A stretch of 64,000 nucleotides of DNA from positions 1 to 64,000 of the forward strand of contig NZ_BOMS01000131.1 of the NCBI RefSeq assembly GCF_016862315.1, in the 5' to 3' direction. Shown here piece after piece: positions 20,349 through 37,695 of this stretch. A program made the translations under genes and the position numbers. Each line of letters opens with the position of its first letter. The first letter of the stretch is position 1. Origin of the DNA: Actinoplanes palleronii (GTDB taxonomy: Bacteria; Actinomycetota; Actinomycetes; Mycobacteriales; Micromonosporaceae). The notes beneath the pieces were generated by a model. That model made no database searches, had not been told where the DNA came from, and saw only the letters and a list, made by a program, of their open reading frames with translations.

Positions 20349-21416
20349 TCAGGTGTCGTGGGACCAGCGGGGGACCAGGGACTCGTGGGCTTCCAGGCGG
20401 TGCTGGGTTCGCTGCGGGTCGGTTTTGGTGATGGCGTCCAAGAGGCTGATCGCCAGGGTGACCACGGCGGCGTGTGAGTCGAAGACCAGGCCGGTGCCGA
20501 CCGGGGCGACCAGCAGCACGTCAGCGTCGTCGGCGAACGGGACCAACGCGGTGTCGGCGATCACCACGGTGGCCAGGCCGAGGCTGCGGGCCAGCCGGAC
20601 GGCGGCGACCGTGCCGGCCGGGTAGCGCGGCATGGCGAAGACCAGCAGCGCGGTCGCGCCCTGCTGGCTCAGTTGCAGCACGGCGTCGTCGACCTCGCCG
20701 GCGTCGGTGCAGACGCTGACCGCGGGCAGGACCCGACGGGCGAAATATCCGAAATATTGGGCCAGGGCGGCCGAGGCGCGCAGGCCGACCACGCCGAGCG
20801 GGGTGGTGCCGGCGAGCAGGTGCACGGCCCGGCTCATCAGGTCACCGGAGACCACCCGATGAAGGCGCGCGAGGTTCGCGCGTTCCTGCTCGATCGCGGC
20901 GCCGCCGAGGTCCGTGCGCTGCCCGAGGCCGTGCTGCCCGACACCGTGCTGGCTGACACCGTGCCCGTCGCCGCCGCGCTGGTCGGGGCCCTGCTGGTCG
21001 CTGCCGGGGCGCTCGGGGCCGCGGCGGTCGCCGCTGGGGCGGTCGAAGCCCCGCTGGGCGCCGCTGGGGCGGTCGAGGCCCTGCTGGTCGCCGCCGCGCT
21101 GCTCGAGGCCGTGCTGGTCGCCGACGCCGAGCTGGCCGGTGCCGGTGCCGGGGCCGCGCTGCTCCGGGATGCGGGCCAGGACGGCGTCGCGGAGGGCGGC
21201 TCGGAACTCCGGGAAACCGGCGAAACCCAGCGCCGTCGCGAGCCGGGTGACGGTCGGCTGGCTGACCCCGGTGCGCTCGGCGATCTCGATGGTCGACAGG
21301 AACGCGACGTCCGGGAACATGCCCAGCATCCGCCGGACGATCTGTCGTTGCGCGGGCGAGAGCCGGTGCGCCTGCGCCAGATTCAGCAGCCAATCCACGG
21401 CCCCGTCGTGTTCCAT
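20349..21416 (-). CDS. RpiR/MurR-family regulator with a repeat insertion
   Basis: This 355-residue regulator has an N-terminal RpiR-type helix-turn-helix (STIEIAERTGVSQPTVTRLA, about residues 40-65). The C-terminal SIS sugar-isomerase-like domain (about 185-330) has LGVVGLRASAALAQYFGYF. Between them lies a Gly/Gln/Asp-rich stretch of about 80 residues not typical of the family. I used the ATG at 21416, with GAAGGG upstream. It is divergent from the cyclodeaminase/lyase operon at 21519 and is its likely regulator. RpiR proteins normally sense phosphosugars, but amino-acid-derived ligands are possible here. Confidence 0.85.
   Translation of the reverse strand: MEHDGAVDWLLNLAQAHRLSPAQRQIVRRMLGMFPDVAFLSTIEIAERTGVSQPTVTRLATALGFAGFPEFRAALRDAVLARIPEQRGPGTGTGQLGVGDQHGLEQRGGDQQGLDRPSGAQRGFDRPSGDRRGPERPGSDQQGPDQRGGDGHGVSQHGVGQHGLGQRTDLGGAAIEQERANLARLHRVVSGDLMSRAVHLLAGTTPLGVVGLRASAALAQYFGYFARRVLPAVSVCTDAGEVDDAVLQLSQQGATALLVFAMPRYPAGTVAAVRLARSLGLATVVIADTALVPFADDADVLLVAPVGTGLVFDSHAAVVTLAISLLDAITKTDPQRTQHRLEAHESLVPRWSHDT
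20905..21165. repeat. In-frame ~30-bp degenerate repeats inside the RpiR gene
   Basis: The DNA is a run of imperfect units encoding decapeptides like DRPSGDRRGP and DQQGPDQRGG, joining DNA-binding and SIS domains. The frame is kept throughout, indicating a tolerated linker expansion. Confidence 0.7.
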
Positions 21417-21518
21417 CGATGCCCTTCGTCGCGCTGCTCTCCGTGAATACTCTAAAACACACGGGAGATATGGTGCATTCGACGATTCAGGCAGGCCGGG
21501 CGAAGGTGTGATGGGCTG

Positions 21519-22535
21519 ATGACCGAACGGGCGATCTGGCTGCGGTTCCTTTCCGGCTTCGACATCGACGAGCTGAACATCGGCACGGACGAGGTGATCG
21601 CCGCGGTCGAGGGGGTCGTCGACGCGCACGGGCGGGGCCGGACGGTTTTCGAGCCGCGGACCCACCTGGTGCCGGACAACGGCGGCGCCGGGCACTTCAA
21701 CATCCTTCGCGGGCACGTCTCCACGCTGGGTGACCACGGCCTCAGCGGGGTGAAGGTGGTCGGCGACTTCGTCCCGAACTACCTGCAGGGCCTGCCGAGC
21801 GAGCTGGCCATGATGACCCTGTTCGACCCGGCCACCGGCGTCCCGCTGGCGATCATGGATGCCACCCTGATCACCGAGGTGCGTACCGGGGCGATGACCG
21901 CGGTCGGCGCCAAGCACCTGGCCCGCCCGGACTCGAAGATCCTCGGGCACGTCGGCGCCCGGGGCACCGCGTTCGCGAACGTCACCATGCTCGACCGGCT
22001 CTTCCCTCTGGAGGAGATCCGGGTGACCAGCCGCCGGCCGGAGTCGCGGGAGGCGTTCGCCGACCGGTTGCGCACGGTCACCGACACCCCGGTCCGCGCC
22101 GTCGCCACCGCGGACGAGGCGTATGCGGACGCCGACATCCTGGTCGAGGCGTCCCGGTTGGAGCAGCCGACCCCGCTGCTGCGCACCGCGGCGGTCAAAC
22201 CCGGAGCGTTCGTGGTCCCCTACGGCACGGTCAGCGCCGTCGAACTGGACCTGCTCGACGTGATGGACAAGGTGGTCGTCGACGACTGGCGCGAGTCGCG
22301 GTCCGGCCGGTTCGGCGCCCTGCGCGCGCACGTCGACACCGGCCGGCTGACCGAGCAGTCGCTCCACGCCCAGATCGGCGAGATCGTCAGTGGCGCCAAG
22401 CCCGGCCGCGAGCGCCCCGACGAGCGGATCCTGTTCTGGCACCGCGGACTGTCGATCCTCGACGTGGCCCTGGCCCACCTCATCCTGACCAGGGCCGAGG
22501 CGGCCGACACCGGAACCATGCTCCGGTACCGATGA
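21519..22535 (+). CDS. Ornithine cyclodeaminase/mu-crystallin family protein
   Basis: This 338-residue protein is in the OCD/mu-crystallin superfamily of NAD(P)-dependent amino/imino-acid enzymes. Visible family features are the GVKVVGDF lysine strand, DATLITEVRTGAMTAVGAKHL (substrate-binding Arg), a Rossmann region near 143-155 and VELDLLDVMDKVVVDD. The dinucleotide loop reads HVGARGTAFA rather than the usual GxGxQA, so cofactor use may differ. It overlaps the lyase-fold gene by 4 bases (ATGA), so the two are translationally coupled and probably work on one substrate. Confidence 0.85.
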   Translation: MTERAIWLRFLSGFDIDELNIGTDEVIAAVEGVVDAHGRGRTVFEPRTHLVPDNGGAGHFNILRGHVSTLGDHGLSGVKVVGDFVPNYLQGLPSELAMMTLFDPATGVPLAIMDATLITEVRTGAMTAVGAKHLARPDSKILGHVGARGTAFANVTMLDRLFPLEEIRVTSRRPESREAFADRLRTVTDTPVRAVATADEAYADADILVEASRLEQPTPLLRTAAVKPGAFVVPYGTVSAVELDLLDVMDKVVVDDWRESRSGRFGALRAHVDTGRLTEQSLHAQIGEIVSGAKPGRERPDERILFWHRGLSILDVALAHLILTRAEAADTGTMLRYR

Positions 22536-23986
22536 CCGGCGTGCTGCGGGTGCGTTCGGCGGCGGACTTCGATCGTACGAAAATGGGCCTTGTCGCCCGA
22601 ACCGCGACCAGCGTCGTGCTGGAACCCGCGCTGCTCGCGCACGTCGCCGCCAACCGGGCGTCGGTGTTGACGGCGCTCGATGGCGACCAGGCGGTCTACG
22701 GGGTCAACACCGGGATGGGCGCGCTCGCCGGGATCCGCCTCGACGCGGAGTCCCGCGCGCGGCACCAGGACACCCTGATGGCCGGCCGGGCGGTCGGGTC
22801 GGCGCCGTGGCTGCGGCGTGACCAGGCCCGCGCGGTGCTCGCGGTGCGGCTGCGGACCCTGCTGCACCCGGCCGCGGGCGTCTCGCCGGAGCTGTGCGTG
22901 CGGCTCGCCGACCTGCTGAACGCCGACGTGGTGCCGGCCATCCCGGCGCGGGGCGGTGGCGCGGCCGGCGAGATCATCCCGCTGGCGCACGCCGGTGCTG
23001 TGCTGATCGGAACCGGTCAGGTGCTCGACGCCGCCGGGAGCGCGGTCGATGCCGGGCCGGTGCTGGCCGCGGCCGGGCTGCGTCCGGGGTCGTTCGGGGC
23101 GAAGGAGGGTGTCGCGTTCCTGGAGGGCGTGCCCGGCCTGACCGGGCTCGCGCTGCTCGCCACGGACGAGGTCCGGGTGCTGGTCGGCCAGGTGGTCGCG
23201 GTGGCCGGTGCGGCCCAGGCGGTGGTCGGGGCGAGCGCTGATCCGTTGCGGCCGCAGTTGGCTTTCGGTGACGACGATTTGGGTACGGTCAACGCCGCCC
23301 TCCTGGCCGCGCGCGGCGACGGACCGGCCCGCGCGCTGCAGGCACCGGTGTCGTTCCGGGTGACCGGGCCGGCCCTGGCCGTGGTGGTGCGGGCCGCCGC
23401 GGCGCTGGAGGCGGCCGTCGAGCGGGCGCTGACCGGCGTGACCGACTCGCCCGCGCACCTGGACGGCCGGTTCTACGGCACCGCGGGCTTCGCCGGCACC
23501 GACCTGACCGCGGCCTGCGCAGCGCTGACCACCGCGCTCACCCACCTGGCCGAGATCGGCGCGGCCCGGCTGCACCGGCTGCTCGACCCGGCGGTCACCG
23601 GCCTGCCGAAACAGCTCTCCGACGCGCCCGGGGTGCACGCCGGGATGGTGGCGGTGCACAAGCGGGCGGCCGGGGTGGCGCACCGGATGCGGCGGTTCGC
23701 GATGCCGGCGCTGATCGGGGCGATGGAGACGTCCGGGGGTCAGGAGGACGTGCAGAGCTTCGGGTTCGAGGCCGCGGAGTGCCTGGGTGAGGCGGTGGAC
23801 GGGCTGCGGGACGTGCTGGCCTGTGAGCTGCTGGCGGTGCACCAGGCGGGGCTGTTGTCCGGTGCGGTCGCCCCGATCCTGCCGGTCGGTGTGCTGCCCG
23901 GTGGCACTGCGGACCGGCCGTTCGGGCGGGATCTGGACACGCTCGTGGAGCTGCTGCGAGCGGGGTGGGCGGGTTCGGTCAGCTAG
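22532..23986 (+). CDS. Aromatic amino-acid lyase-fold protein lacking the MIO triad
   Basis: This 484-residue protein belongs to the histidine/phenylalanine ammonia-lyase superfamily by AVYGVNTGMG (Tyr56), VPAIPARGGG, IPLAHAG and GGQEDVQSFGFEAAE. True lyases form the electrophilic MIO cofactor from Ala-Ser-Gly within GASGDL. Here the loop reads A144-A145-G146-E147 and is one residue shorter, so the cofactor serine is absent. The usual RCxPQ substrate-site motif is also not found (PVSFRVTGP instead). It either catalyses a different reaction or acts without MIO. It is coupled to the OCD-like gene. Confidence 0.85.
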   Translation: MTGVLRVRSAADFDRTKMGLVARTATSVVLEPALLAHVAANRASVLTALDGDQAVYGVNTGMGALAGIRLDAESRARHQDTLMAGRAVGSAPWLRRDQARAVLAVRLRTLLHPAAGVSPELCVRLADLLNADVVPAIPARGGGAAGEIIPLAHAGAVLIGTGQVLDAAGSAVDAGPVLAAAGLRPGSFGAKEGVAFLEGVPGLTGLALLATDEVRVLVGQVVAVAGAAQAVVGASADPLRPQLAFGDDDLGTVNAALLAARGDGPARALQAPVSFRVTGPALAVVVRAAAALEAAVERALTGVTDSPAHLDGRFYGTAGFAGTDLTAACAALTTALTHLAEIGAARLHRLLDPAVTGLPKQLSDAPGVHAGMVAVHKRAAGVAHRMRRFAMPALIGAMETSGGQEDVQSFGFEAAECLGEAVDGLRDVLACELLAVHQAGLLSGAVAPILPVGVLPGGTADRPFGRDLDTLVELLRAGWAGSVS

Positions 23987-24099: not shown

Positions 24100-25107
24100 T
24101 CAGCGGGCTTCGGTGCGCGGGCTGGTCGAGCTGCGGACGATCAGTTCCGGGCGGAACATCGGGGCGTCGGCCGGCTTGTCGAGCTGGGCGACCGCGGCCT
24201 CGACGATGGCGTCCTCGTCCCAGGCCATCGTGGTCAGGCCCGGGTCAACGAGTGCGGCCAGCTGATGATCGTCGTAGCCGACCACCGACAGATCGGCCGG
24301 GATGCGCAGGCCGGCCTCGCGGGCGGCCCGGTAGACCGCGAACGCGAGCGAATCGGTCAGGCAGAAGACCGCGGTCGGGCGGTCGGAGCCGGCCAGCATC
24401 GCGGCCACCACGGTGACGGCGTCGGTGGTGGCGGCCGGCGCGGCGACCACGGACAGCTCGATGCCCAGGCCGGCGGCGACCTCACCGGCGAGGACCTCGG
24501 CCGGGCGGCCCGGCGTGGTGGGCAGCGACGGAGCGAGCAGCCCGATCCGCTGGTGACCCAAAGCGGTCAGGTGGGCCAGCGCGGTGTGCACGCCATAGGC
24601 GTTGTCGAACAGCACGCTGCCGGAGCCGGGCCGGGCGATCAGGGCATCGCCGATCGAGACGACCGCGACGTCCGGGCCGAGTAGCCGCCAGTAGTCGGCG
24701 GCCGGGTCGACCGGGGAGACCAGCGCGCCGTCCACCCGCTGCGCGGCGAACTGCTCGACGATCAGGCGTTCCTGCTCCGGGTCGGCGTCGGCGTCGGCGA
24801 TCGTCGCGTAGCGCCCGCGGTGCCGCAGCGCGCGGGTCAGCATCACCGAGAGGTCCTGCTGCCACAGGTCGCGCAGCGAGCCGCTGACCCCGACCGAGCC
24901 GGTCCGTCCGCTGGCCAGCGCCCGGGCGATCGGGTCGACCGTGTAGCCCAGCTCGGTGGCGAGGGCCCGCACCCGGTCGATGGTGGCGGGGGAGCCGCGG
25001 ACGCCGCGCAGCGCATATGAGGTGGCGGCGAGCGAGAGGCCGGCGGCGGTCGCGAGGTCCTGCAGGGTGCGCCGGGACTGCCCTCGTGGCGTCGGGCCTC
25101 GTTGCAT
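24100..25107 (-). CDS. LacI-family transcriptional regulator
   Basis: This 335-residue LacI/GalR regulator has an N-terminal helix-turn-helix (RTLQDLATAAGLSLAATSYALRG) and a periplasmic-binding-protein-like domain ending in SVVGYDDHQLAALVDPGLTT. The ATG at 25107 gives the usual N-terminus; a longer frame to 25152 adds atypical residues. Two perfect GTGAAGCGCTTCAC palindromes lie between it and the divergent amidohydrolase/cupin operon, making that operon its clear target. The effector is unknown. Confidence 0.92.
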   Translation of the reverse strand: MQRGPTPRGQSRRTLQDLATAAGLSLAATSYALRGVRGSPATIDRVRALATELGYTVDPIARALASGRTGSVGVSGSLRDLWQQDLSVMLTRALRHRGRYATIADADADPEQERLIVEQFAAQRVDGALVSPVDPAADYWRLLGPDVAVVSIGDALIARPGSGSVLFDNAYGVHTALAHLTALGHQRIGLLAPSLPTTPGRPAEVLAGEVAAGLGIELSVVAAPAATTDAVTVVAAMLAGSDRPTAVFCLTDSLAFAVYRAAREAGLRIPADLSVVGYDDHQLAALVDPGLTTMAWDEDAIVEAAVAQLDKPADAPMFRPELIVRSSTSPRTEAR

Positions 25108-25239: not shown

Positions 25240-26136
25240 GTGCTCATCGACTGCCATCAGCACCTGTGGCCCGCGCGCCTGATCGAGGCGCTGCGCCGCC
25301 GGGACGCGTACCCGTACCTGCGGGACTGGACGCTGCACCTGCCCGGCGAGGCGCCGTACCAGGTCGACCCGGCCGCGCACGACGTCGGGCTGCGCCGGGA
25401 CCGTGAGCTCGCCGAGGGCCGGGAGCAGGTGCTGCTCTCGCTCTCCAGCCCGCTCGGCATCGAGCACCTGCCCGGCGACGACGCGGCCGAGCTCGTCGCG
25501 ATCTGGCACGAGAGCGCGCTGGAGCTGCCCGAGCCGTACCGGATCTGGGCCGCCGCGCCGGTCGCCGACCCGGACCCGGTGGCGCTGGCCAAGGTGCTCG
25601 GCGAGGACCGGGTCGCCGGGCTGCAACTGCCCGCGACCGCGCTGGCCGAGCCGGCCGGCATCACCCGGATGGGGCCGCTGCTCGCCGAGGCGGAGAACGC
25701 GAACAAGCCGGTGCTGGTGCACCCCGGGCCGGCGCCGGCCTGCGCCCCGGACCTGCCGTCGTGGTGGCCGGCGCTGGTGCCGTATGTGGCCCAGCAGCAC
25801 CGGGCATGGCTGGCCTGGCACATCGCCGGGCGGGAGCAGCACCCGCGGCTGCGGATCGCCTTCGTCGCGCTCGCCGGGCTCGCGCCGCTGCACCACGAAC
25901 GGCTGGCCGCGCGCGGGGGCGCGTTGGGGCCGCTGGATCCGTGTGTGTACTACGAGACCTCGTCGTACGGCACCCGGGCGATCGACGCGCTGGTCCGGGT
26001 GGTCGGCGTCGACCCGATCGTGCACGGGTCGGACCGCCCGTACGCCGAACCGACCGACCCGGGCCTGGGCGCGGCCTTCACCCACGCGATGTTCACGGCG
26101 AACCCCCGCCACCTGTTGACAGGAGATATGCGATGA
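25240..26136 (+). CDS. Amidohydrolase-2 family metal-dependent hydrolase
   Basis: This 298-residue protein starts at a GTG with a GGAGG site. It opens with LIDCHQHLWPARLIEAL, the HxH metal motif of amidohydrolase-2 TIM-barrel enzymes. VLVHPGPA, WLAWHIAGREQHP and VHGSDRPYAEP follow the family order, including the catalytic aspartate in GSDRP. Family members hydrolyse lactones or decarboxylate aromatic acids. It is the first gene of a LacI-controlled pair and overlaps the cupin gene by 4 bases. Confidence 0.88.
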   Translation: MLIDCHQHLWPARLIEALRRRDAYPYLRDWTLHLPGEAPYQVDPAAHDVGLRRDRELAEGREQVLLSLSSPLGIEHLPGDDAAELVAIWHESALELPEPYRIWAAAPVADPDPVALAKVLGEDRVAGLQLPATALAEPAGITRMGPLLAEAENANKPVLVHPGPAPACAPDLPSWWPALVPYVAQQHRAWLAWHIAGREQHPRLRIAFVALAGLAPLHHERLAARGGALGPLDPCVYYETSSYGTRAIDALVRVVGVDPIVHGSDRPYAEPTDPGLGAAFTHAMFTANPRHLLTGDMR

Positions 26137-26645
26137 CGACGGTCGCCGGCCCCGGCGTGCTTCCCGCCCTTCCCGGCCGTGCCCTGACCCCCAAGGAACT
26201 GCAACTCTGGGTCGCCGAGCTGGCCGCCCGCCCGGAGCTGTGGGAGGACCTGGTCCGCCACGACACCGGCAAGCGGCACTACGTGTCGCTCTACCGCGAC
26301 GGCGACATCGACGTCTGGGTGCTGTGCTGGAACCTCGAGGACGACACCGGCTGGCACGACCACGACGTGTCCTCGGGCGCGGTCGCGGTCGTCCGGGGCG
26401 CGGTCAGCGAGGCGACCCCGCGCATCGGCGGCGATCCGTCGGGGCGGGTGGTCGCGGCCGGCCGGACGTTCGCCTTCGGCCCGGACCACATCCACCGGAT
26501 GGGCGGCGCGGTGGACGGCTCGGTGTCGCTGCACGCGTATTCACCGCCGCTGTGGCGAATGGGCCAGTATTCGATCAGCGGCGACGGCGTCCTGCGCCGC
26601 AATTCGGTCAGCTATGCCGACGAACTGCGCCCGATCGACGGCTGA
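26133..26645 (+). CDS. Cysteine dioxygenase-like cupin
   Basis: This 170-residue cupin resembles the cysteine dioxygenase/thiol dioxygenase family. Metal ligands appear as WHDHD (two His) and FGPDHIHRMGG (third His), and SLHAYSPPLWRMGQY matches the family C-terminal motif. Such enzymes oxidise thiols to sulfinates with Fe(II) and O2. It starts at the ATG at 26133 inside the end of the amidohydrolase gene, so the pair is translationally coupled. The substrate is not necessarily cysteine. Confidence 0.85.
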   Translation: MTTVAGPGVLPALPGRALTPKELQLWVAELAARPELWEDLVRHDTGKRHYVSLYRDGDIDVWVLCWNLEDDTGWHDHDVSSGAVAVVRGAVSEATPRIGGDPSGRVVAAGRTFAFGPDHIHRMGGAVDGSVSLHAYSPPLWRMGQYSISGDGVLRRNSVSYADELRPIDG

Positions 26646-27188: not shown

Positions 27189-27791
27189 ATGGTGCGGAAC
27201 CGGTTCGCCGTGGGGGCCGGGCTCGCGGTCGCCGGGGGCGCCGGGGTGATGTTGGTGGCGCTCGTTGCCGGGCCGGGGTCGTGGTGGCGGGGATACGTGA
27301 GCGAGGCCGGGGCGGCCGGCCAGCCGTACGCTATGGGTTATCGCTTTGGTTTGATCTTGCTGGCGTATGGTGTGGCGCTGCTGAGCCGGGCGGTGCCGCG
27401 GATCGGGGTGTTGCTGCTGGTCGCGGCGCTGCTCGCCGGAACGTCCGGTGTCGTGTCATGTAGCGAGGGGTGCCCGCTGCCGCCCTACGAGACGACGACA
27501 CCCGCCGATGTCGTGCACACCGCGGTCAGCATCCTGGGCATGGCCGTGTTGGCCGCCGCGATGGCGGTGACCTGGTGGACGAGCGCGCGACAGGTGATCC
27601 GGCGGCTCGCGGCGGCCGCTCTGACGCTGACCGTGCCGCTGGGCGCGGCCCTGGGCCTGATGATGCTGTTCGCCGGGCGGGGCGCCACGAGCGCCGTGCT
27701 GGAACGGGTGCTGCTCGTGGTCGCGGTGAGTTGGCTGGTCGGCACCGCCGTGGTCAGCGGCGTCAGGGCAGGTCGTTCCGCGTCTGGATGA
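27189..27791 (+). CDS. DUF998-like membrane protein
   Basis: This 200-residue protein starts at the ATG at 27189. It has about six hydrophobic segments, with YVSEAGAAGQPYA after the first and CSEGCPLPPYE in the loop after the third. YVSE in this position and the overall layout fit the DUF998 family of actinobacterial membrane proteins of unknown function. It converges on and overlaps the last 29 bases of the peptide-ABC ATPase gene. Confidence 0.75.
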   Translation: MVRNRFAVGAGLAVAGGAGVMLVALVAGPGSWWRGYVSEAGAAGQPYAMGYRFGLILLAYGVALLSRAVPRIGVLLLVAALLAGTSGVVSCSEGCPLPPYETTTPADVVHTAVSILGMAVLAAAMAVTWWTSARQVIRRLAAAALTLTVPLGAALGLMMLFAGRGATSAVLERVLLVVAVSWLVGTAVVSGVRAGRSASG

Positions 27792-28863
27792 GGCCCGAGC
27801 CCACGTCGGGCGCAGAGCCCTGTGCCGGGCGGACGAGTTCGGTGTGCACCTCGTGCATCCGCAGCTCGCCGCTGTGGATCTGTTCGGCGAAGTGGCAGGC
27901 GACCCGCTGCCCGGAGTCGTCGAACACCCGCAGCTCCGGCCGGTCCTCGGCGCAGCGGGGCTGTGACCAGGGGCAACGGGTGCGGAACCGGCACCCGCTC
28001 GGTGGGTTGACCGGGGACGGCAGGTCGCCGGCCAGCAGGATCCGCTCCCGCCGGTCCTCGGTCCACGGGTCGGGGATCGGCACCGCCGAGAGCAGCGCCC
28101 GGGTGTACGGGTGCAGCGGTCGCTGGTACAGCCGGTCGCCGTCCGCCTCCTCGACCAGCGCGCCCAGGTACATCACGCCGATCGTGTCCGAGATGTGCCG
28201 CACCACCGCCAGGTCGTGGGCGATCACCAGGTAGGTCAGGCCGAGGGACTCCTGCAGGTCGCCGAGCAGGTTGACCACCTGCGCCTGGATCGACACGTCC
28301 AGCGCGGACACCGGCTCGTCGGCCACGATCAGTTCCGGTCCGAGGATCAGGGCCCGGGCGATGCCGATGCGCTGGCGCTGGCCGCCGGAGAACTCGTGGG
28401 GGTACTTGTTCAGTGTCGACGCGGGCAGGCCGACCGAGTCGAGGGTCGAGCGCAGCCGCTGTCGTACCGCTGCCTTGTCTCTATGCATGTCGTGCGCCTT
28501 GAGACCCTCGACGAGCAGGGACTCCACCGACTGCCGGGGATCGAGGCTGGACATCGGGTCCTGGAACACCATCTGGATGCGCCGCCGGAACAGCCGCATC
28601 TGCTCGCCCTGGAGCGCGCGCACGTCGGTGCCGTCCACGATGATCCGGCCGTGGGTCGGCTCGACCAGCCGCAGCAGCCCGCGGCCGAGCGTCGACTTGC
28701 CGCACCCGGACTCGCCGACCAGGCCGTAGGTCTCGCCCCGCGCGATCTTCAGTGACACGCCGTCGACGGCGAGGACATGAGCGATCGTACGGTCGAAGAG
28801 CAGTCCGCTCTTGATCGGGAAGTGAACCTTGAGGTCGTCGATCTCGACGAGCACGTCGCTCAT
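27763..28863 (-). CDS. dppF: Peptide ABC transporter ATP-binding protein (DppF/OppF type)
   Basis: This 366-residue ATPase starts at the ATG at 28863. Walker A GESGCGKS, Q-loop FQDP, signature SGGQRQRIGIARAL and Walker B LIVADEPVSALD are complete. The C-terminal extension has the CRFRTRCPWSQPRC cysteine motif that binds an Fe-S cluster in DppF/OppF-type proteins. It is the last gene of a minus-strand operon and overlaps dppD by 4 bases. The substrate class, peptides or related compounds, is inferred from family. Confidence 0.92.
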   Translation of the reverse strand: MSDVLVEIDDLKVHFPIKSGLLFDRTIAHVLAVDGVSLKIARGETYGLVGESGCGKSTLGRGLLRLVEPTHGRIIVDGTDVRALQGEQMRLFRRRIQMVFQDPMSSLDPRQSVESLLVEGLKAHDMHRDKAAVRQRLRSTLDSVGLPASTLNKYPHEFSGGQRQRIGIARALILGPELIVADEPVSALDVSIQAQVVNLLGDLQESLGLTYLVIAHDLAVVRHISDTIGVMYLGALVEEADGDRLYQRPLHPYTRALLSAVPIPDPWTEDRRERILLAGDLPSPVNPPSGCRFRTRCPWSQPRCAEDRPELRVFDDSGQRVACHFAEQIHSGELRMHEVHTELVRPAQGSAPDVGSGLIQTRNDLP

Positions 28864-29843
28864 GCCGGCACCTCCTGCGGTACGGGGTTCGTGCACCGCA
28901 GCGCGCCGTCGCGGCGGGTGGGTTCCAGGGGCACCGTCGCGCCGACGCAGTCGTCGATCACCCGATCGCAGCGCGGCGCGAACGCACAGCCCTCCGGCCA
29001 GGGGATGTTGTCGCTGACCGAGCCGCGGATCTGGTGCAGGCGCCCGCCGCGATCGACATCCAGCCGGGGTACGGACTGCAGCAGCCCGTGGGTGTACGGA
29101 TGCCGCGGATCCGCGAACAGGTCGTGCCGGCCGGCCCGCTCGACGACCTTGCCGGCGTACAGGACGTTCACCGTGTCGCAGAGCCCGGCCACCACACCGA
29201 GGTCATGGGTGATCATCACGAGGGCCGTGCCGGACTGGTCGACCAGTTCCTTGAGCAGGGCGAGGATCTGCGCCTGGATGGTCACGTCCAGCGCCGTGGT
29301 CGGCTCGTCGGCGATCAGCAGCCGCGGTTTGCAGGCCAGCGCGATCGCGATCAGCGCCCGCTGCCGCATGCCGCCGGAGAGCTGGTGCGGGAACTCCTTG
29401 AGCCGCCGCGCCGGATCCGGGATGCCGACCGCGTCGAGCAGCCCACCGGCCTGGCGCAGCGCCGCCTGCCGGGTCTTGCCCTGGTGGCGTTCCAGCACCT
29501 CGGCCACCTGCAGGCCGAGCGGGATCACCGGGTTGAGCGAGGACAGCGGATCCTGGAAGATCATGCCGATGTCCCGGCCGCGCCGGTCCCGCAGGTCCTG
29601 CGGGCGCAGTTTCAGCAGGTCGGTGTCCTCGAACCGGACCTCGCCGGTGACCTGGTTGCCGCGCCGCGGCAGCAACCCCATGATCGCCAGGCTGGTCACC
29701 GACTTGCCGCAGCCGGACTCGCCGACCAGCCCGACGGTCTGGCCGGGTTCCACCGTGAAGCCGACGCCGTCCACCGCGGTGAAGGGCTCCGCGCCCCTGC
29801 GCCGGAAGACCACCGACAGATCACGAACGTCGAGCAGGGCCAT
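28860..29843 (-). CDS. dppD: Peptide ABC transporter ATP-binding protein (DppD/OppD type)
   Basis: This 327-residue ATPase has Walker A GESGCGKS, IFQDP, signature SGGMRQRALIAIAL and LLIADEPTTALD. The DppD/OppD C-terminal cysteine motif is present (CAFAPRCDRVIDDC). It energises import with the DppF-type subunit. It is coupled to the downstream ATPase by an ATGA overlap and separated from the upstream permease by 6 bases. Confidence 0.92.
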   Translation of the reverse strand: MALLDVRDLSVVFRRRGAEPFTAVDGVGFTVEPGQTVGLVGESGCGKSVTSLAIMGLLPRRGNQVTGEVRFEDTDLLKLRPQDLRDRRGRDIGMIFQDPLSSLNPVIPLGLQVAEVLERHQGKTRQAALRQAGGLLDAVGIPDPARRLKEFPHQLSGGMRQRALIAIALACKPRLLIADEPTTALDVTIQAQILALLKELVDQSGTALVMITHDLGVVAGLCDTVNVLYAGKVVERAGRHDLFADPRHPYTHGLLQSVPRLDVDRGGRLHQIRGSVSDNIPWPEGCAFAPRCDRVIDDCVGATVPLEPTRRDGALRCTNPVPQEVPA

Positions 29844-29849
29844 GACAGA

Positions 29850-30809
29850 TCACCGCCGGTTCTTCGGGTCGAGTGCCGCCCGCATGCTCTCGCCGAGCAG
29901 CGTGAAGCCGAGAGCCACCAGGACGATCGCGATCGCCGGGTAGTAGGCCAGCTCCGGGCGGACCTCGAGGTATCGGACGCCGTCCACACCCAGCATCAGA
30001 CCCCACTCGGCCCGGTTGATGTCCGGGTCGCCGAGGCCCAGGAACGACAGCGCGGCCGCGTCCAGGATCGCCACCGCGAAGGTCAGGGTGGCCTGCACGA
30101 TGACCGCGGTGAGCGAGTTCGGCAGCATGTGCCGGGTCACGATGTCGTGCCGCTTCACGCCGAGCGCGCGGGCCGCGAGCACGTGATCGCTCTCCCGTTG
30201 CGCCAGCATCGACCCGCGGAGCAGCCGGGCGAAGATCGGCACGTTCACCACCGCGACGGCGACGATCACCGTCCACTGCGTCGACTGCCGGGCCAGGGCG
30301 ACCAGCGTGATCGCCAGCAGCAGGCTGGGCAGCGCCAGCATCACGTCGGTGATCCGCATGATCACGACGTCCACCCAGCCGCCGACCGCGCCGGCGACCG
30401 CGCCGAGCAGCACCCCGAACAGCAGGCCGATCAGCGTGGCCAGGACACCGACGAACAGGGTCTGCCGGGCGCCGTAGATCATCCGGGAGGCGAAGTCGCG
30501 TCCCAGCGGGTCGCTGCCGAGCGGGTGTCCCGCGCTGGCGCCCGGCACCGAGTCGACGGTCAGGTCCCTGGTCAGCTCCGGGAACCGCTGCACCGGATCG
30601 TGCGGCGCCACCAGCGGCGCGAAGATCGCGATGATCAGGAACAGCAGGATGATGGCCGCGCCGACGATCGCGGCCGGGTCGCGCCGCAGCCGCCGCCCGG
30701 CGTCGCGGATCAGGCTGACCCCGGCTGCCGTGGACGTCCGCGCGGTCAGCTCGTCGATGCGGCGGCGCTTGTGGTCGCTGAGCGTCGTGATCCCTCCGGT
30801 TCGGCTCAT
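29850..30809 (-). CDS. dppC: Peptide ABC transporter permease (DppC type)
   Basis: This 319-residue inner-membrane permease has a cytoplasmic N-terminus, a first helix (IVGAAIILLFLIIAIFAP), the DppC-type DPLGRDFASRMIYGARQTL and a BPD_transp_1 core with EXXAAXAXG-like ARALGVKRHDIVTRHMLPN. It overlaps the DppB-type gene by 4 bases. Confidence 0.92.
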   Translation of the reverse strand: MSRTGGITTLSDHKRRRIDELTARTSTAAGVSLIRDAGRRLRRDPAAIVGAAIILLFLIIAIFAPLVAPHDPVQRFPELTRDLTVDSVPGASAGHPLGSDPLGRDFASRMIYGARQTLFVGVLATLIGLLFGVLLGAVAGAVGGWVDVVIMRITDVMLALPSLLLAITLVALARQSTQWTVIVAVAVVNVPIFARLLRGSMLAQRESDHVLAARALGVKRHDIVTRHMLPNSLTAVIVQATLTFAVAILDAAALSFLGLGDPDINRAEWGLMLGVDGVRYLEVRPELAYYPAIAIVLVALGFTLLGESMRAALDPKNRR

Positions 30810-31813
30810 GGCACACGCACCCTCGGGTCGATGACCGCGTACGAGAGGTCGACCAGCAGGTTGACCACGATGAAGACGACCGCGGCGAGCAGGATCAGCG
30901 CCTGCAGCACCGGATAGTCACGGCTGCCGCTGATCGAGTCGGTGATCACCGTGCCCAGGCCGCCCCAGTTGTAGACCTTCTCGGTCAGCACCGCCCCGGC
31001 CAGCAGCGCCCCGGTCTGCAGCCCGATGGTGGTGACCACGGGCAGCAGCGCGTTGCGCAGCACGTGCCGCCGGCGGATGGTGGCGTCGCGCAGGCCCTTG
31101 GCGTCCGCGGTCCGGATGTAGTCCTCGTCCAGGACGTCCAGCACACTCGCCCGGGTGATCCGGACGATGATCGCCAGCGGGATCGTCGCCAGCGTGAGCG
31201 CGGGCAGCACCAGGTGCCAGAGCGCGTCGGCGGAGGCGTCCAACTCCCGGGTCAGCAGCCCGTCCAGCACGAAGAAGCCGGTCACGTCGGTGTTGTCGGC
31301 GCCGGTGCTGATCCGGCCGGACGGCGGGAAGACGTGGATGTCCTGGGTCAGCCAGTCCTTGAGCAGGTAACCGAGGAAGAAGATCGGGATCGAGATGCCG
31401 ATCAGGGTGACGACGATCGTCGCGTTGTCGAGCAGCCGGCCGCGGTACCGGGCCGCGAGGTAGCCCAGCGGGATGCCCAGCCCGACCGCGACGATGATCG
31501 CCGCGATGGCCAGTTCGACGGTCGCCGGGAAGGCACGGCCGATCACCGCGGTCACCGGCTCTCCGGTACGGATGGAGTTGCCGAAGTCGCCGGTCACCAC
31601 GTTCTCGACGAAGCGGCCGTACTGGACCCAGATCGGTTTGTCGTAGCCGAGCGCCCGGGTCAGCGTCTCGCGGGTCTGCGGGGTCGCGCGTTCGCCCAGC
31701 AACGCGTCGACGGGTCCGCCGGGAAGACTGCGCAGCCAGAAGAAGACCAGGGTCATCAGGGCGATCAGGGTGACGCTCAACTGGGTCAGGCGGCGTAGGA
31801 CGATTCTCACCAT
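30806..31813 (-). CDS. dppB: Peptide ABC transporter permease (DppB type)
   Basis: This 335-residue permease starts at the ATG at 31813. The N-terminal helix (LSVTLIALMTLVFFWLRSLPGGP), then YVRTADAKGL-like DYIRTADAKGL and RHVLRNALLPVVTTIG are classical DppB features. It forms the channel with the DppC-type subunit. It lies 68 bases downstream of the binding-protein gene. Confidence 0.92.
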   Translation of the reverse strand: MVRIVLRRLTQLSVTLIALMTLVFFWLRSLPGGPVDALLGERATPQTRETLTRALGYDKPIWVQYGRFVENVVTGDFGNSIRTGEPVTAVIGRAFPATVELAIAAIIVAVGLGIPLGYLAARYRGRLLDNATIVVTLIGISIPIFFLGYLLKDWLTQDIHVFPPSGRISTGADNTDVTGFFVLDGLLTRELDASADALWHLVLPALTLATIPLAIIVRITRASVLDVLDEDYIRTADAKGLRDATIRRRHVLRNALLPVVTTIGLQTGALLAGAVLTEKVYNWGGLGTVITDSISGSRDYPVLQALILLAAVVFIVVNLLVDLSYAVIDPRVRVP

Positions 31814-31881
31814 GGAACGGCGACTCCTGTCAGAATCGCGCCGCCGTGGCCCGGTGGCCGGACCACGGCGGCACCCGGCGC

Positions 31882-33567
31882 TTACTTGGTGATCGAGACC
31901 GTGTTGAACGTCTCGGCGGTGAGCGGGCTCGGCACCAGACCCTGGACGTTCTTCGTGGTGACCAGGGCCGGCGGGGCGTGCCAGATCGGCACGGCGGGCA
32001 GCCACTTGGTGGCCATGTCCCGGTTGACCTGCTCCCACGCGGTCTTCTTGGCCGCCTGGTCGACGGTCGCGTCGGCCTTGGCGATGGCGGAGAACATCTC
32101 GGTCATCGACTGGTCGCCGAACTCGGGCTTGGCCCGGCCGAAGAACGTGCCGACGAAGTTGCCCGGGTCGTTGTAGTCGCCGGTCCAGCCGAGGATGTGC
32201 AGGTCCTGCTTGCCGAACTGCTGCACGTCGTCCTTGAAGCCGCCGTTCCACGGCCGCGGAACACCGTTGACCTTGATACCGGCCGCCTGCAGATCGTTGG
32301 CCAGCACCGTGAAGATCTCCTGCGGGTTCGGCATGTACGGCCGGGAGACCTCGGTCGGGTAGTAGAAGTTCAGCGTGAGACCGGTCGCGCCGGCGTCGGC
32401 CAGCAGCTGCTTGGCCTTGTCGACGCTGTACTCGTACTTCTGCACGTCCGGCGCGTACCCGAGCACGGTGCTGGGCAGGAACTGGTCGGCCACCGCGGCG
32501 CCGCCCGGGCCCTTGGTCTGCACCAGCTGGGCGCGGTTCAGCGCGTACGCGATCGCCTGCCGGACCCGCAGGTCCTTGAGCTTCGGGTTGTTCTTCTGGT
32601 TGATGCCCAGGTAGAGGATGTTGAAGGCGGGCCGTTCGAGCACCTGGTAGCCCTCGGCGGCGAGGGCCTTGCGGTCGGCCGGCGCCGGGAAGTCGATCGC
32701 CTGGACCGTGCCGGCGCGCAGCTCCTGCTTCCGGGTGTTCTCGTCCTTGATCACCTTGATGATCATCTTGTCGACCTTGGCCTTGTCACCCCAGTAGTTC
32801 GGGTTCTTGTTCAGGGTGAGCTCGCCGGTCGCCTTGTTCCAGCCGCCGAACGTGAACGCGCCGGTGCCGGTCGGGTGCTCGTTCGCGAACGCGCTGTAGG
32901 AGAACGAGTCGCCGCTCTGCGTCACGGTGTCGGCGCCGTACTGTTTCATCGCGGCCGGGCTCGCGATGGAGAACGCGGTGAGCGCGAACGCGCCCGGGAA
33001 CGCGCCCTTGTACTTCTTCATCGTCACGACCGCGGTGCCGGCGTCGGGCGCCTTGCAGTTGTCGTAGACGGCGTCCGGGCTGCCGGCGAACCCGCCGAAG
33101 ACGTCGGCGTAGTAGATCATCTGGGACTGGGCGGCCTCGCCCTTCATGGCGGACCAGCGGTCGAAGTTCGCGCACACGGCCGCGGCGTCGAACGCGGTGC
33201 CGTCGTGGAACGTGACACCCTGGCGCAGCTTGAACGTCCAGATCTTGCCGGTCGGGTCGTTGGACCAGCTCTCGGCGAGGCCACCGACCAATTCGGCGGT
33301 GCCGGGCTTGTGGGTGATCAGCGTGTCGTACATCTGCCGGATCGGCCGGAACGACTCACCGTCATCGTTGAAGATCGGGTCGAAGTTCTTCGGGTCGCCG
33401 GCGCCCGCGAGGATGAAGGTGCCGCCGCCGGCGCCCTTGTCGGCGCCGTTGTCCCGGTCGCTCTCCGCGCAGCCGGCCGCGCCGATCGTCATGACCGCCA
33501 GAACGCCGGCGGCGATGAGGGCCCGGAGCCGGTCCGGCTGCCTTCCTGGTGCGCGCATCGTGTTCAC
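31882..33567 (-). CDS. dppA: Peptide ABC transporter substrate-binding lipoprotein
   Basis: This 561-residue family-5 solute-binding lipoprotein has a lipobox (IGAAGC) with Cys near residue 33. SBP_bac_5 features include WTFKLRQGVTFHDGTAFDAAAV near residue 125. The exported protein captures the substrate outside the membrane. Starts at the first ATG or the fourth codon (MRAPG) are both possible. It heads the dppBCDF genes; the lyase-fold gene at 33736 lies 168 bases upstream on the same strand and may share regulation. Confidence 0.9.
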   Translation of the reverse strand: MNTMRAPGRQPDRLRALIAAGVLAVMTIGAAGCAESDRDNGADKGAGGGTFILAGAGDPKNFDPIFNDDGESFRPIRQMYDTLITHKPGTAELVGGLAESWSNDPTGKIWTFKLRQGVTFHDGTAFDAAAVCANFDRWSAMKGEAAQSQMIYYADVFGGFAGSPDAVYDNCKAPDAGTAVVTMKKYKGAFPGAFALTAFSIASPAAMKQYGADTVTQSGDSFSYSAFANEHPTGTGAFTFGGWNKATGELTLNKNPNYWGDKAKVDKMIIKVIKDENTRKQELRAGTVQAIDFPAPADRKALAAEGYQVLERPAFNILYLGINQKNNPKLKDLRVRQAIAYALNRAQLVQTKGPGGAAVADQFLPSTVLGYAPDVQKYEYSVDKAKQLLADAGATGLTLNFYYPTEVSRPYMPNPQEIFTVLANDLQAAGIKVNGVPRPWNGGFKDDVQQFGKQDLHILGWTGDYNDPGNFVGTFFGRAKPEFGDQSMTEMFSAIAKADATVDQAAKKTAWEQVNRDMATKWLPAVPIWHAPPALVTTKNVQGLVPSPLTAETFNTVSITK

Positions 33568-33735: not shown

Positions 33736-35169
33736 TCAGAGAAGCGCGGCGATGGCGGGCAGCACCGCGACCGCGTTCTCCAGGTCGGTGCCGAGCGGGC
33801 GGTCGTCGAACCCCGGCACCAGGTTCTTGGCGGCCATGTCGAACGCGTCCCGGGCGATGCCGTCCGGCAGGCGGCCCGGCGCCATCCGCAGCGCCCGGAC
33901 CGCCGCGACCAGCTCGGCGGCGAGCAGGGTCGGCGCGAGCTCGGTCATCCGGCGCAGGGAACGCGCGCCCTGGGTGGCGAAGCTGGCGTGCTCCTCCAGG
34001 CCGAGCGAGATGGTCAGGGTGCCGGCCGCGATCGGCTGCATGCCGACGCGGATCTCGGTGAGGACGTCCTGGACCACGTACTCGCCGATCATCAGGCCGG
34101 AACTGCCGGCCGGGCCGTCGGCGAGGAACGCCCGCAGACCGGTCATGTCGGGACGCATCAGCAGGCCGACCCGGGCCGAGGAGAGCGACAGCACCGGAAG
34201 GAACGCGCTGCGCACGGCGTCGAGACCGGCGGCTAGGGTCGCGGTGTGGAACTGTCCGTGATGCAGGACGCCGTCGTCGGTGACCAGCGGGTTCTCCACC
34301 GCGGCGTTGAGTTCGGCGGTGAGCACGTCGTGCAGGGACCGGGCCGCGTGGATCGCCGGAGCGGTGACCTGCGGCACCACCCGCAGGCCGAACGGGTCCT
34401 GGATGCGTAGCGGCGGGGCGCACCCGGCCACCAGCGTGTTGAGCAGGGTGGCCACCTCGACCTGGCCGGGGTGGGCGCGAGCCTGGTGGACGGCCGGGTG
34501 GTAGGCCTCGGGATTGCCGCGCAGGGCCAGGAACGAGAGCGCGGCCACCACCACGGAGGCCCGGATCAGCTCCTCCACCTGGGCCAGGGCGAGGATCGCG
34601 GTCGCGACGGTGAGCGCGCTCGAGCTGATCATCGGCAGCGCGTCGGTGCCGTCGATCGGGATGACCGGGCCGTTGCCGGAGCGCCAGGGGCGTTCGCCGG
34701 CCAGGGTCAGGCCCAGCTCGGCGAGGGCGGAGAGGTCGGCGGTGCCGATCGCGCCCCACGGGTGCAGGCTCGGGACGGCGCCGTCGCGCAGCGCGGTGGC
34801 CAGGGCCTCGGCGACGCGCCGGGACACCCCGGAGCCGCCGGCCAGGATCTGATTGAGGCGTACGGCCATGGCGGCCCGCGCGGTGACGTCGTCCTCCTCG
34901 GGCCCGACCGCCGCGCAGTGGCTGCGCAGCATCCGCAGGCCGTGCTCGGCGGCGTCGTCGGACTTCTCGTGCCGGTTCGCGCCGACACCGGTGTTGGCGC
35001 CGTAGACCGCGCCGCGCTCCCGGGCGGCGTGCAGGCGGGCGTGCCGGGCCTCGACCAGCTGCAGCGCGGCCGGGCCGACCTCGGCCACGGCCCGCCCGGA
35101 GGCGATCGCGAGCAGACCGGAGATGGTCAAGGTCCGCCCGTCGAGGGGAACGCCGGTGGCCGCCTGCAT
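33736..35169 (-). CDS. Second aromatic amino-acid lyase-fold protein, MIO triad absent
   Basis: This 477-residue protein has HAL/PAL-superfamily features: AVYGANTGVGAN (Tyr56), VPSLHPWGAIG, RIQDPFGLRVVPQV (close to the usual substrate-site motif) and SLGLEEHASFATQGAR. Where GASGDLAPL should be it reads G142-T143-A144-D145-L, one residue shorter and without the serine that makes MIO. It retains more canonical motifs than the paralogue at 22532. It lies upstream of the peptide transporter genes on the same strand and is divergent from the OpuC-type operon, so the substrate is probably an imported amino-acid derivative (inference). Confidence 0.85.
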   Translation of the reverse strand: MQAATGVPLDGRTLTISGLLAIASGRAVAEVGPAALQLVEARHARLHAARERGAVYGANTGVGANRHEKSDDAAEHGLRMLRSHCAAVGPEEDDVTARAAMAVRLNQILAGGSGVSRRVAEALATALRDGAVPSLHPWGAIGTADLSALAELGLTLAGERPWRSGNGPVIPIDGTDALPMISSSALTVATAILALAQVEELIRASVVVAALSFLALRGNPEAYHPAVHQARAHPGQVEVATLLNTLVAGCAPPLRIQDPFGLRVVPQVTAPAIHAARSLHDVLTAELNAAVENPLVTDDGVLHHGQFHTATLAAGLDAVRSAFLPVLSLSSARVGLLMRPDMTGLRAFLADGPAGSSGLMIGEYVVQDVLTEIRVGMQPIAAGTLTISLGLEEHASFATQGARSLRRMTELAPTLLAAELVAAVRALRMAPGRLPDGIARDAFDMAAKNLVPGFDDRPLGTDLENAVAVLPAIAALL

Positions 35170-35293: not shown

Positions 35294-36340
35294 ATGATCA
35301 CATTTGAGGACGTCGTCAAGGTCTACCCCGGTGGGAGCACCGCGGTGGACCACCTCTCGATGGAGTTGCCCACCGGGAAGATGACGGTTCTCGTCGGTCC
35401 GTCCGGCTGTGGCAAGACCACCTCGCTCCGCATGATCAACCGGATGGTCATCCCGACGTCGGGCCGCATCCTGATCGACGGCAAGGACGTCTCGGGCCAG
35501 GACGAGGCGGTGCTGCGCCGCGGCATCGGCTACGTCATCCAGCACGCCGGGCTCTTCCCGCACCGGACCGTGCTGGACAACGTGGCCACGGTGCCGCTGC
35601 TGCTCGGCAAGACCCGCCGCGAGGCCCGGTCGGCGGCGATGGAGCTGCTGGAGCGGGTCGGGCTGTCCGCCGAGTTCGCCAAGCGTTACCCGGCCCAGCT
35701 CTCCGGCGGGCAGCAGCAGCGGGTGGGCGTCGCCCGGGCGCTCGCGGCCGACCCGCCGGTGATGCTGATGGACGAGCCGTTCAGCGCGGTCGACCCGGTG
35801 GTGCGCGAGGGCCTGCACCGCGAGTTCCTCCGGCTGCAGCAGGACCTGGGCAAGACGATCGCGATGGTCACCCACGACATCGACGAGGCGATCAAGCTCG
35901 GTGACATGGTCGCGGTCTTCCGGCAGGGCGGGCACCTGGCCCAGTTCGGCACACCGCAGGAGCTGCTGGAGCAGCCGGTCGACGACTTCGTGGCCGAGTT
36001 CGTGGGCCGCGACCGCGGTCTGCGCAGCCTCTCCTTCGACACCGCGGCCGACCTGCCGGTCCAGCCGGTGGGTTCGTTCGACGGGGCGGAGCTGGTGCTC
36101 GACGACGCCGGCCGTCCGCTGGGCTGGCGGCGCGACGGCGGCACGATCGAGCCGACCGCCGGGGTGTTCACCACCGGCGACTCGCTGCGGATGGTCACCG
36201 ACCTGGCGATCACCTCGCCGGTCGGTGTCGCGGTGCGCGTCGGGGCGGACGGCAAGGCGGAGGGTCTGGTCCGCCACCACGACCTGGTCGACTTCCTGGC
36301 CGCCCGGCGAGACCGGCGGGCGGCGGAGCGCAGCGCATGA
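35294..36340 (+). CDS. opuCA: OpuC/ProV-type osmoprotectant ABC transporter ATP-binding protein
   Basis: This 348-residue ATPase has Walker A GPSGCGKTT, signature LSGGQQQRVGVARAL, Walker B VMLMDEPFSAVD and the family-typical MINRMVIPTSG and VTHDIDEA. The C-terminal 90 residues form a reduced CBS-like regulatory region (VTDLAITSPVGVAV). It drives uptake of quaternary amines such as glycine betaine or choline in characterised relatives. It overlaps the next gene by 4 bases. Confidence 0.9.
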   Translation: MITFEDVVKVYPGGSTAVDHLSMELPTGKMTVLVGPSGCGKTTSLRMINRMVIPTSGRILIDGKDVSGQDEAVLRRGIGYVIQHAGLFPHRTVLDNVATVPLLLGKTRREARSAAMELLERVGLSAEFAKRYPAQLSGGQQQRVGVARALAADPPVMLMDEPFSAVDPVVREGLHREFLRLQQDLGKTIAMVTHDIDEAIKLGDMVAVFRQGGHLAQFGTPQELLEQPVDDFVAEFVGRDRGLRSLSFDTAADLPVQPVGSFDGAELVLDDAGRPLGWRRDGGTIEPTAGVFTTGDSLRMVTDLAITSPVGVAVRVGADGKAEGLVRHHDLVDFLAARRDRRAAERSA

Positions 36341-36993
36341 TCCAATACCTGACCAACAACCACGAGGTCGTGCTCGCCGCGCTGCAGCAGCACATCTACC
36401 TCGCGCTGCTGCCGATCCTGATCGGCCTGGTGGTGGCCCTGCCGATCGGCTACCTCGGGGTGCGTTTCCCCTGGTTCTATCACCCGCTGGTGAACGTCTG
36501 CGGCGTGCTCTACTCGATCCCGTCGCTGGCCCTGTTCGTCTTCCTGCCGGTCCTGCTCGGCACCAAGATCCTGGCGCCGGTCAACATCGTGGTGGCGCTG
36601 ACGATCTACACGGTGGCGCTGCTGGCCCGGACGGTCGCCGACGGCCTGCGCTCGGTCGACCCGGTGATCACCCAGTCGGCCACCGCGATGGGCTACCGCC
36701 GCCTGCGCCGGCTGTTCGACGTCGAGCTGCCGGTCGCGCTGCCGGTGATCCTGGCCGGCCTGCGGGTCGCCACCGTCTCCAACATCAGCCTGGTCAGCGT
36801 CGGCGCCCTGATCGGCGTCGGCGGGCTCGGGCAGCTGTTCACCCGCGGCTTCCAGCTGTTCTACCTGGAACCGATCATCATCGGCATCATCCTGTCGGTG
36901 CTGCTCGCCGGCCTGGCCGACCTGATCATCGTGCTCGTCCAGCGGGCACTCACCCCGTGGACCCGGCACCAGCACGGTGGAGGCGCCGCGTGA
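36337..36993 (+). CDS. opuCB: OpuC-type permease 1
   Basis: This 218-residue inner-membrane permease has five to six hydrophobic segments. It includes the family-typical GVRFPWFYHPLVNVCGVLYSIPSLALFVF and ATAMGYRRLRRLFDVELPVALPVILAGLR coupling region. It is coupled on both sides by 4-base overlaps. Together with the next permease it forms a heterodimeric channel. Confidence 0.9.
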   Translation: MIQYLTNNHEVVLAALQQHIYLALLPILIGLVVALPIGYLGVRFPWFYHPLVNVCGVLYSIPSLALFVFLPVLLGTKILAPVNIVVALTIYTVALLARTVADGLRSVDPVITQSATAMGYRRLRRLFDVELPVALPVILAGLRVATVSNISLVSVGALIGVGGLGQLFTRGFQLFYLEPIIIGIILSVLLAGLADLIIVLVQRALTPWTRHQHGGGAA

Positions 36994-37676: not shown

Positions 37677-37695
37677 AACCATCGGAAGGTCGAAC

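Follow-up and report, generated by a model that had tools for sequence, protein, structure and literature searches.

A lyase-fold protein without the MIO serine, coupled to an ornithine cyclodeaminase-like enzyme, in a probable ergothioneine-degrading gene cluster of Actinoplanes palleronii

A lyase fold with a shortened MIO loop

The first 64,000 nucleotides of contig NZ_BOMS01000131.1 from Actinoplanes palleronii (assembly GCF_016862315.1), referred to here as the window, carry an intact open reading frame for a protein with the fold of the aromatic ammonia-lyases, which we call LYA1 (Table 1). The protein matches the Lyase_aromatic profile PF00221 (E = 4.3e-83; 280 bits, cut-off 27.3), and its score of 215 bits against the HutH model TIGR01225 falls under the cut-off of 539. 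An AlphaFold model of LYA1 (predicted local distance difference test score, pLDDT, 82) was placed by Foldseek roughly equally close to structures of histidine ammonia-lyase (HAL), an aminomutase, and ergothionase, with template modeling (TM) scores of about 0.8. The start codon of LYA1 overlaps the stop codon of the preceding gene through the tetranucleotide ATGA at 22532–22535. That gene encodes a protein of the ornithine cyclodeaminase (OCD)/mu-crystallin family, which scores above the cut-off of the family profile PF02423 (5e-52; 177 bits, cut-off 24), matches 13 NCBIfam models, all below their cut-offs, and has alanine dehydrogenase 1omo as its best solved relative.

A reading of the window made from its letters alone (the sequence-only reading) had described LYA1 as an aromatic-lyase fold in which the loop that would form the 4-methylideneimidazole-5-one (MIO) group contains A144-A145-G146-E147, is one residue short, and lacks serine. 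The profile match and the alignment to HAL bear this out. The loop runs P138-ARGGG-A144-A145-G146-E147-IIPLAH, with Ala-Ala-Gly where MIO enzymes have Ala-Ser-Gly, and when aligned to the HAL loop PEHGSLGASGDLAPLAH it is one residue short and contains no MIO tripeptide. A shifted alignment that hides the serine, raised in the same reading as a possible objection, was ruled out, since the window loop has no serine anywhere and is short under any gap placement.

Conservation was followed in the best 80 of 90 passing loci from one scan of species genomes. By title, these loci belong to Actinomycetota, except for one Chloroflexi metagenome-assembled genome (MAG), and the sample is biased toward Actinoplanes and its relatives, Kribbella, and Amycolatopsis. 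The resulting alignment holds 81 LYA1 sequences, the window protein included, with three short fragments left out. The loop measures 15–16 residues in all 81, compared with 17 in seven of seven MIO-containing controls. Its tripeptide is SAG in 40 sequences, AAG in 35, SSG in three, TAG in two, and ASG in one, so that the middle position is Ala in 77 and Ser in four; Asn195 (HAL numbering) is missing from every sequence. Loss of the MIO serine is thus a conserved feature, with the four exceptions just given, and the shortening of the loop is universal. The OCD-like gene lies within 10 kb of LYA1 at 60 of the 80 loci.

These counts bear on two alternatives. The four sequences with a middle serine, one of them ASG, could point to an ordinary ammonia-lyase with an unusual route to MIO or to some other electrophile; the alanine in the other 77, together with the short loop and the absence of Asn195 in all 81, including the four that carry the serine, makes this very unlikely. 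Alternatively, the missing serine could mark a single decayed copy of HutH. However, close LYA1 proteins are present in 16 of 35 other genomes of the same genus, the features are conserved across the family, and the genome encodes an ASG-type HAL elsewhere. One ASG and three SSG sequences among 81 are too few for decay, and a decayed copy, being refuted by the orthologs, was given practically no weight.

Two further observations concern these sequences. Cys-Ser-Gly replaces Ala-Ser-Gly at the MIO site of full-length HALs at loci L086 (5628–7313), L088 (5581–7239), and L161, and the LYA1 orthologs of L043, L044, and L045 seemingly contain some 70–80 additional in-frame residues after residue ~165.

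Outside the loop, part of the HAL active site is retained. Tyr53, Gln277, and Arg283 (HAL numbering) are kept in 81 of 81 LYA1 sequences and Glu414 in all 79 readable ones, with two gaps; in the window protein, Tyr56, Arg276, and Glu405 correspond to HAL Tyr53, Arg283, and Glu414. His83 of HAL is replaced by Arg in 81 of 81 sequences (Arg86 in the window protein), and Lys377 is found in 78, with one Met and two unreadable positions. Tyr280 of HAL is lost in the window protein, which has Val at position 280. The earlier statement that the RCxPQ motif is lost stands in part: the corresponding stretch reads SFRVTGPA, in which the Cys and the Pro-Gln are gone, as is Tyr280, but Arg276 and Gln270 are kept in all 81 sequences. 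Arg283 of HAL is taken here to bind the substrate carboxylate. With roles carried over from HAL, the lost residues would presumably serve the MIO group, and the kept ones proton removal and carboxylate binding.

MIO-less relatives and OCD-linked lyases

The window encodes a second MIO-less lyase, LYA2. In its family the loop has 16 residues in 55 of 55 readable rows (one further row had no readable loop in the loop-length alignment) and contains GT[GAS]D or, once, GMGD; His83 is retained, and Tyr stands where LYA1 has Lys377. LYA2 groups with ergothionase (PDB 6s7j) with support of 100/98, or 96/97 when more rows are included, and LYA1 forms a clade of its own (100/100) outside the ergothionase clade. 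A single MIO-less clade was not rejected by the tree test (approximately unbiased test, p-AU 0.30), and a clade joining LYA1 with the OCD-linked lyases of the ergothionase clade was weakly rejected (p-AU 0.04). A further MIO-less lyase, with loop GSVGASDL and no Gly after the Ser, was observed near OCD and LYA1 in the Chloroflexi MAG (locus L104, 16814–18331, minus strand); its best solved match is ergothionase at 198 bits, with HAL at 197.

The presence of two lyase-fold proteins in one cluster, and the loss of MIO, Asn195, and Tyr280, would also fit a model in which LYA1 is a non-catalytic binding or regulatory subunit, perhaps a partner of LYA2. The complete retention of Tyr and Arg, and of Glu in all readable sequences, speaks against such a role, as does the fact that no LYA2 match at E 1e-60 was obtained in nine of 20 LYA1 genomes tested. 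We consider it very unlikely.

The coupling to the OCD-like gene pointed out in the sequence-only reading is confirmed by the ATGA overlap and by its recurrence. The distance from the OCD stop to the start of the LYA1 match lies between −3 and +152 bp in 57 of the 60 linked loci; two more loci have 216 and 269 bp, and the remaining one was not measurable. The window OCD was matched at E 1e-60 in four of 394 genomes of the class, the window's included, and three of these have LYA1. In the fourth (Streptomyces-like G130, loci L239 and L240), OCD is followed by a different MIO-less lyase with loop GSIGASDL, Arg at 83, and Lys at 377. The OCD of L239 matched 95 plasmid records, of which 84 reach at least 60% identity, and 72 of the 95 are from Rhizobium.

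Sixteen OCD loci were read, comprising 15 plasmid records and L240; L240/L252 and L247/L255 are near-duplicates, and six records are unannotated. MIO-less lyases with Arg83 and the Lys lie in the region of 10 of the 16 (8 kb away in L251). Among the MIO-less lyases near OCD, which belong to another clade than LYA1, Arg83 and the Lys occur together in 10 of 12 and the Lys in all 12; the pair equivalent to Arg86/Lys377 was found in eight of 10 OCD-linked MIO-less lyases of Proteobacteria. Neighbors at these loci include betaine-type transporters, and hutC-like or hutU genes occur at six of the 16 (annotated in L244, L245, and L246; the others recognized by 39–71% similarity). In L241 and L242 (Rhizobium and Sinorhizobium), at 7.6–10.0 kb, genes for two luciferase-type FMN monooxygenases immediately precede those for OCD and the MIO-less lyase, with families tested for L241. 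In Rhizobium and its relatives, neighbors of OCD that are annotated as PhnD/SsuA were considered as sulfonate binders and dropped, as Pfam gives the phosphonate-binding type for both proteins tested.

Gene order and conservation of the cluster

Table 1. Features of the window discussed in the text.
Feature	Position	Strand	Basis and remarks
RpiR-family regulator (HTH_6 + SIS)	20349..21461	-	Profiles; in 13/14 full clusters
OCD/mu-crystallin-like protein, 338 aa	21519..22535	+	PF02423; overlaps LYA1 by ATGA
LYA1, MIO-less aromatic-lyase-fold protein, 484 aa	22532..23986	+	PF00221; AlphaFold model and Foldseek
LYA1 loop P138-H153 at the MIO position, PARGGGAAGEIIPLAH	22943..22990	+	Alignments
LacI-family regulator	24100..25107	-	Profiles; in 14/14 full clusters
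Amidohydro_2 protein (AmH2), probable ergothioneine-sulfinic-acid desulfinase	25240..26136	+	PF04909 slightly above cut-off; function presumed
Cysteine dioxygenase (CDO)-like cupin, probable ergothioneine dioxygenase	26133..26645	+	Similarity to 8qfl/8qfr
Opp-type ABC transporter cassette	27763..33567	-	At this site in the window and one close relative
LYA2, second MIO-less lyase, loop HPWGAIGTADLSALAE	33736..35169	-	PF00221 1.6e-94; tree
OpuC-type ABC transporter	35294..38622	+	ATPase 35294-36340 (ABC_tran), permease 36337-36993 (BPD_transp_1), substrate-binding protein 37696-38622 (OpuAC)

Genes for OCD, LYA1, the LacI-family regulator, AmH2, the CDO-like protein, LYA2, and the transporter are clustered in 14 of the 17 genomes for which regions were fetched; of the other three, one has LYA1 alone and two have OCD–LYA1. 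In the L051 cluster, LYA2 lies on the opposite side of OCD and the RpiR-family gene was not found, and the fetched stretch of L042 ends within the transporter. The same cluster occurs in other actinobacterial genera. Over the whole set of 80 LYA1 loci, CDO with AmH2 and LYA2 each lie within 10 kb at 29, and all five genes (OCD, LYA1, AmH2, CDO, and LYA2) at 27. Some transporter query matched near 52 of the 80, in some cases at 30–40% identity only.

The CDO-like protein scores 218–222 bits to PDB entries 8qfl–8qfr and 24.9 to the next entries, 3eqe and 4qm8. We take 8qfl to be the ergothioneine dioxygenase, the label returned by the PDB search being only "Cysteine dioxygenase"; a single-sequence model of the CDO-like protein, at pLDDT 35, was too poor for a meaningful fold search. 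AmH2, which is present in 52 of 52 loci having a CDO-like gene among 117 loci examined, would presumably be the partner desulfinase that yields hercynine.

EgtUC and a nicotine-sensor precursor are among the nearest solved relatives of the OpuAC-type binding protein. The EgtUC study (PMC9732360) lists an aromatic cage of F293, Y341, Y419, and Y443 with N339, and further site residues E375, R379, and K242. The window protein has Y, D, F, Q, and D at F293, Y341, Y419, Y443, and N339, respectively, and has lost K242. An identity as an EgtU-like ergothioneine importer is not supported by this pocket comparison, and with the cage lost the transporter gives no support for a quaternary-amine ligand. 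The cage is likewise replaced in the binding proteins of the other clusters, mostly by Y, D, F, and Q/E, and E375 and R379, which contact the imidazole and the carboxylate in EgtUC, are kept in 31 of 31 readable rows, the window included. From these sequences, the ligand may be other than a simple betaine. Relatives have a second permease between the OpuC-type genes, which was not called separately in the window.

Links to histidine utilization recur. HutU lies in the fetched region (~10 kb) at nine of 20 loci chosen for LYA2, several of them from related genomes, and at four of the 80 LYA1 loci. Two Nocardioides have the order hutH–hutU–OCD–LYA1, with a HAL of the CSG type. In one actinobacterial MAG, LYA1 adjoins hutU–hutH (L118) and OCD adjoins the transporter (L230), next to homologs of genes that adjoin hutU elsewhere. 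The window's genome encodes an ASG-type HAL and a urocanase ~4 kb apart on another contig, as well as a PF10017 methyltransferase, a family we take to be that of EgtD.

Two further observations concern the regulator and the Opp cassette of the cluster. The RpiR-type regulator contains a long Gly/Gln/Asp-rich low-complexity linker between its HTH and SIS domains, and its relatives match on either side of the linker, mostly not across it. The Opp cassette is present in L034 and L035, and the interval from CDO to LYA2 was not found to contain one in the remaining fetched clusters; another Opp set (26–44% identity) lies beside OCD–LYA1 in L104.

Proposed function and known systems

From the observed fold, loop, residues, clades, gene order, and conservation, we propose a substrate, a leaving group, an order of steps, and a role for the OCD-like enzyme. 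LYA1 is probably a working MIO-free lyase that removes trimethylamine from an ergothioneine-derived betaine and feeds urocanate. Its substrate would be an N-trimethyl-histidine derived from ergothioneine: Tyr56 would take the β-proton, Arg276 would hold the α-carboxylate, and Glu405 is retained. MIO, Asn195, and Tyr280, which serve ammonia activation in HAL, may have been given up because LYA1 would expel a group that is activated from the outset, most likely trimethylamine. The product would be urocanate or a C2-substituted urocanate, which would pass on to the Hut route. LYA2 is probably a sister enzyme for hercynine.

Arg86, in the place of HAL His83, and Lys377 could bind an anionic substituent on imidazole C2. 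The recurrence of this pair in OCD-linked MIO-less lyases of another clade suggests such a substituent, for example a sulfonate. A more tentative extension, which we see as possible rather than probable, is that LYA1 and OCD together clear over-oxidized ergothioneine in two steps, with trimethylamine expelled from the sulfonate or sulfinate and OCD then carrying out a reductive desulfonation. Using NAD(P)H, the OCD-like protein would take either the LYA1 substrate or the next intermediate and add hydride to the imidazole C2=N that bears the sulfonate, so that sulfite leaves and urocanate remains; the sulfonate would be an isostere of the ketimine carboxylate bound by the OCD family. Lyases with the Arg/Lys pair would then have joined OCD on separate occasions, as LYA1 and as ergothionase-clade lyases of Rhizobiales, Azospirillum, Rhodobacterales, and Streptomyces. 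YeiH-type exporters near OCD in three of the 16 loci (L243; L245, below the TIGR00698 cut-off; L252, at the edge) lend weak support to sulfite release.

Several results weigh against these proposals. LYA1 branches outside the ergothionase clade, and the middle serine is present in the three SSG and the one ASG sequences, each followed by E. The CDO-like gene and LYA2 are missing from 51 of the 80 LYA1 loci, some of these genomes holding them elsewhere, and no CDO-like match at E 1e-20 was obtained in 11 of 20 LYA1 genomes tested. Among 24 genomes of the class whose CDO-like gene is a close match (at least 58% identity), just nine have LYA2 within ~10 kb, and 17 further CDO loci include LYA2 in two and HutU in one. 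No OCD match at E 1e-30 was found in 19 of 20 genomes whose LYA1 locus has none, which indicates that OCD is not obligatory for LYA1. The 16 OCD loci include two in which the lyase has His83 with the Lys (L243 and L250), two with an ordinary ASG-type HAL (L246 and L248), and two at which no lyase was found (L249 and L254), and their sulfite-related neighbors are few. Finally, the quaternary-amine cage of EgtUC is missing in the window binding protein (Y341 to D, Y443 to Q).

Some of the same observations would fit a MIO-less lyase for a substrate other than ergothioneine with an anionic side chain, such as an N-substituted dicarboxylic amino acid, in which a carboxylate held by Arg86 would give the β-proton its acidity and OCD would be the imine reductase of the pathway. 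The invariant Arg86 and near-invariant Lys377, the sub-threshold matches of OCD to alanine dehydrogenase and iminosuccinate reductase models, the binding protein without the cage, and the loci and genomes that lack the CDO-like gene are all compatible with it. The repeated proximity of hut genes and of CDO with AmH2 is not readily explained in this way, nor is the fact that LYA2 groups with ergothionase, as do OCD-linked lyases from other phyla, and we judge such a substrate unlikely. Removal of trimethylamine from an ergothioneine-derived betaine remains the preferred function of LYA1.

The comparison delimits a set of proteins unable to carry the usual MIO, several of which are annotated as histidine ammonia-lyase. 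Loop length, the loss of Asn195, and residues 83 and 377 provide a signature by which MIO-less lyases can be sorted. Two such lyases and an OCD-like partner are clustered with genes that probably degrade ergothioneine and, in some genomes, with those of histidine utilization. What becomes of this widespread antioxidant, and a source from which trimethylamine may arise in soil actinobacteria, can thereby be tested directly. The pairing with OCD suggests reductive desulfonation, which would be an unusual use of the OCD family.

Compared with HAL (HutH), LYA1 shares the fold and Tyr53, Gln277, Arg283, Phe329, and Glu414, and differs in its short loop, the lack of the MIO tripeptide in 77 of 81 sequences, and the absence of Asn195, His83, and Tyr280. 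Trimethylamine, a good leaving group, would be able to depart without MIO. The closest precedent is ergothionase, a trimethylamine-lyase of Treponema denticola (6s7j), which has the Lyase_aromatic fold in common with LYA1 (Foldseek TM 0.81–0.85). In a joint alignment its loop, SSIG-EGDI, is likewise one residue short and without Ser; the active-site Tyr, Gln, Arg, Phe, and Glu are kept, Asn195 is lost (Ser in 6s7j), and a Lys aligns with Lys377. LYA1 differs from it by Arg for His at HAL position 83, Val for Leu at 280, a Gly-Ala-Ala-Gly-Glu loop, an HKR motif, and its own clade. The existence of this MIO-free enzyme, whose loop is equally short, weakens the proposal of a new reaction or binding role for this fold: LYA1 is a new clade, its role is narrowed to a putative MIO-free elimination of a good leaving group, and the substrate may be new. 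Ergothionase is stated to be without MIO in PMC13405746, which also cites Yan, Huang and Zhang (ACS Catal 2022), on a bacterial ergothioneine sulfonate catabolic pathway, for the ergothionase of Agrobacterium radiobacter.

That 2022 pathway possibly involves the same chemistry as proposed here for LYA1 and OCD, in which case only the actinobacterial clade would be new. A literature search, with most subscription journals outside its coverage, found no title or abstract opening describing LYA1 or its pairing with OCD. An ergothioneine dioxygenase and a sulfinic acid desulfinase of actinobacteria were reportedly described by Nalivaiko, Vasseur and Seebeck in 2024, and the window has candidate genes for both side by side. 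LYA1 itself, with members from actinobacteria and Chloroflexi, forms a clade separate from the OCD-linked Rhizobiales lyases.

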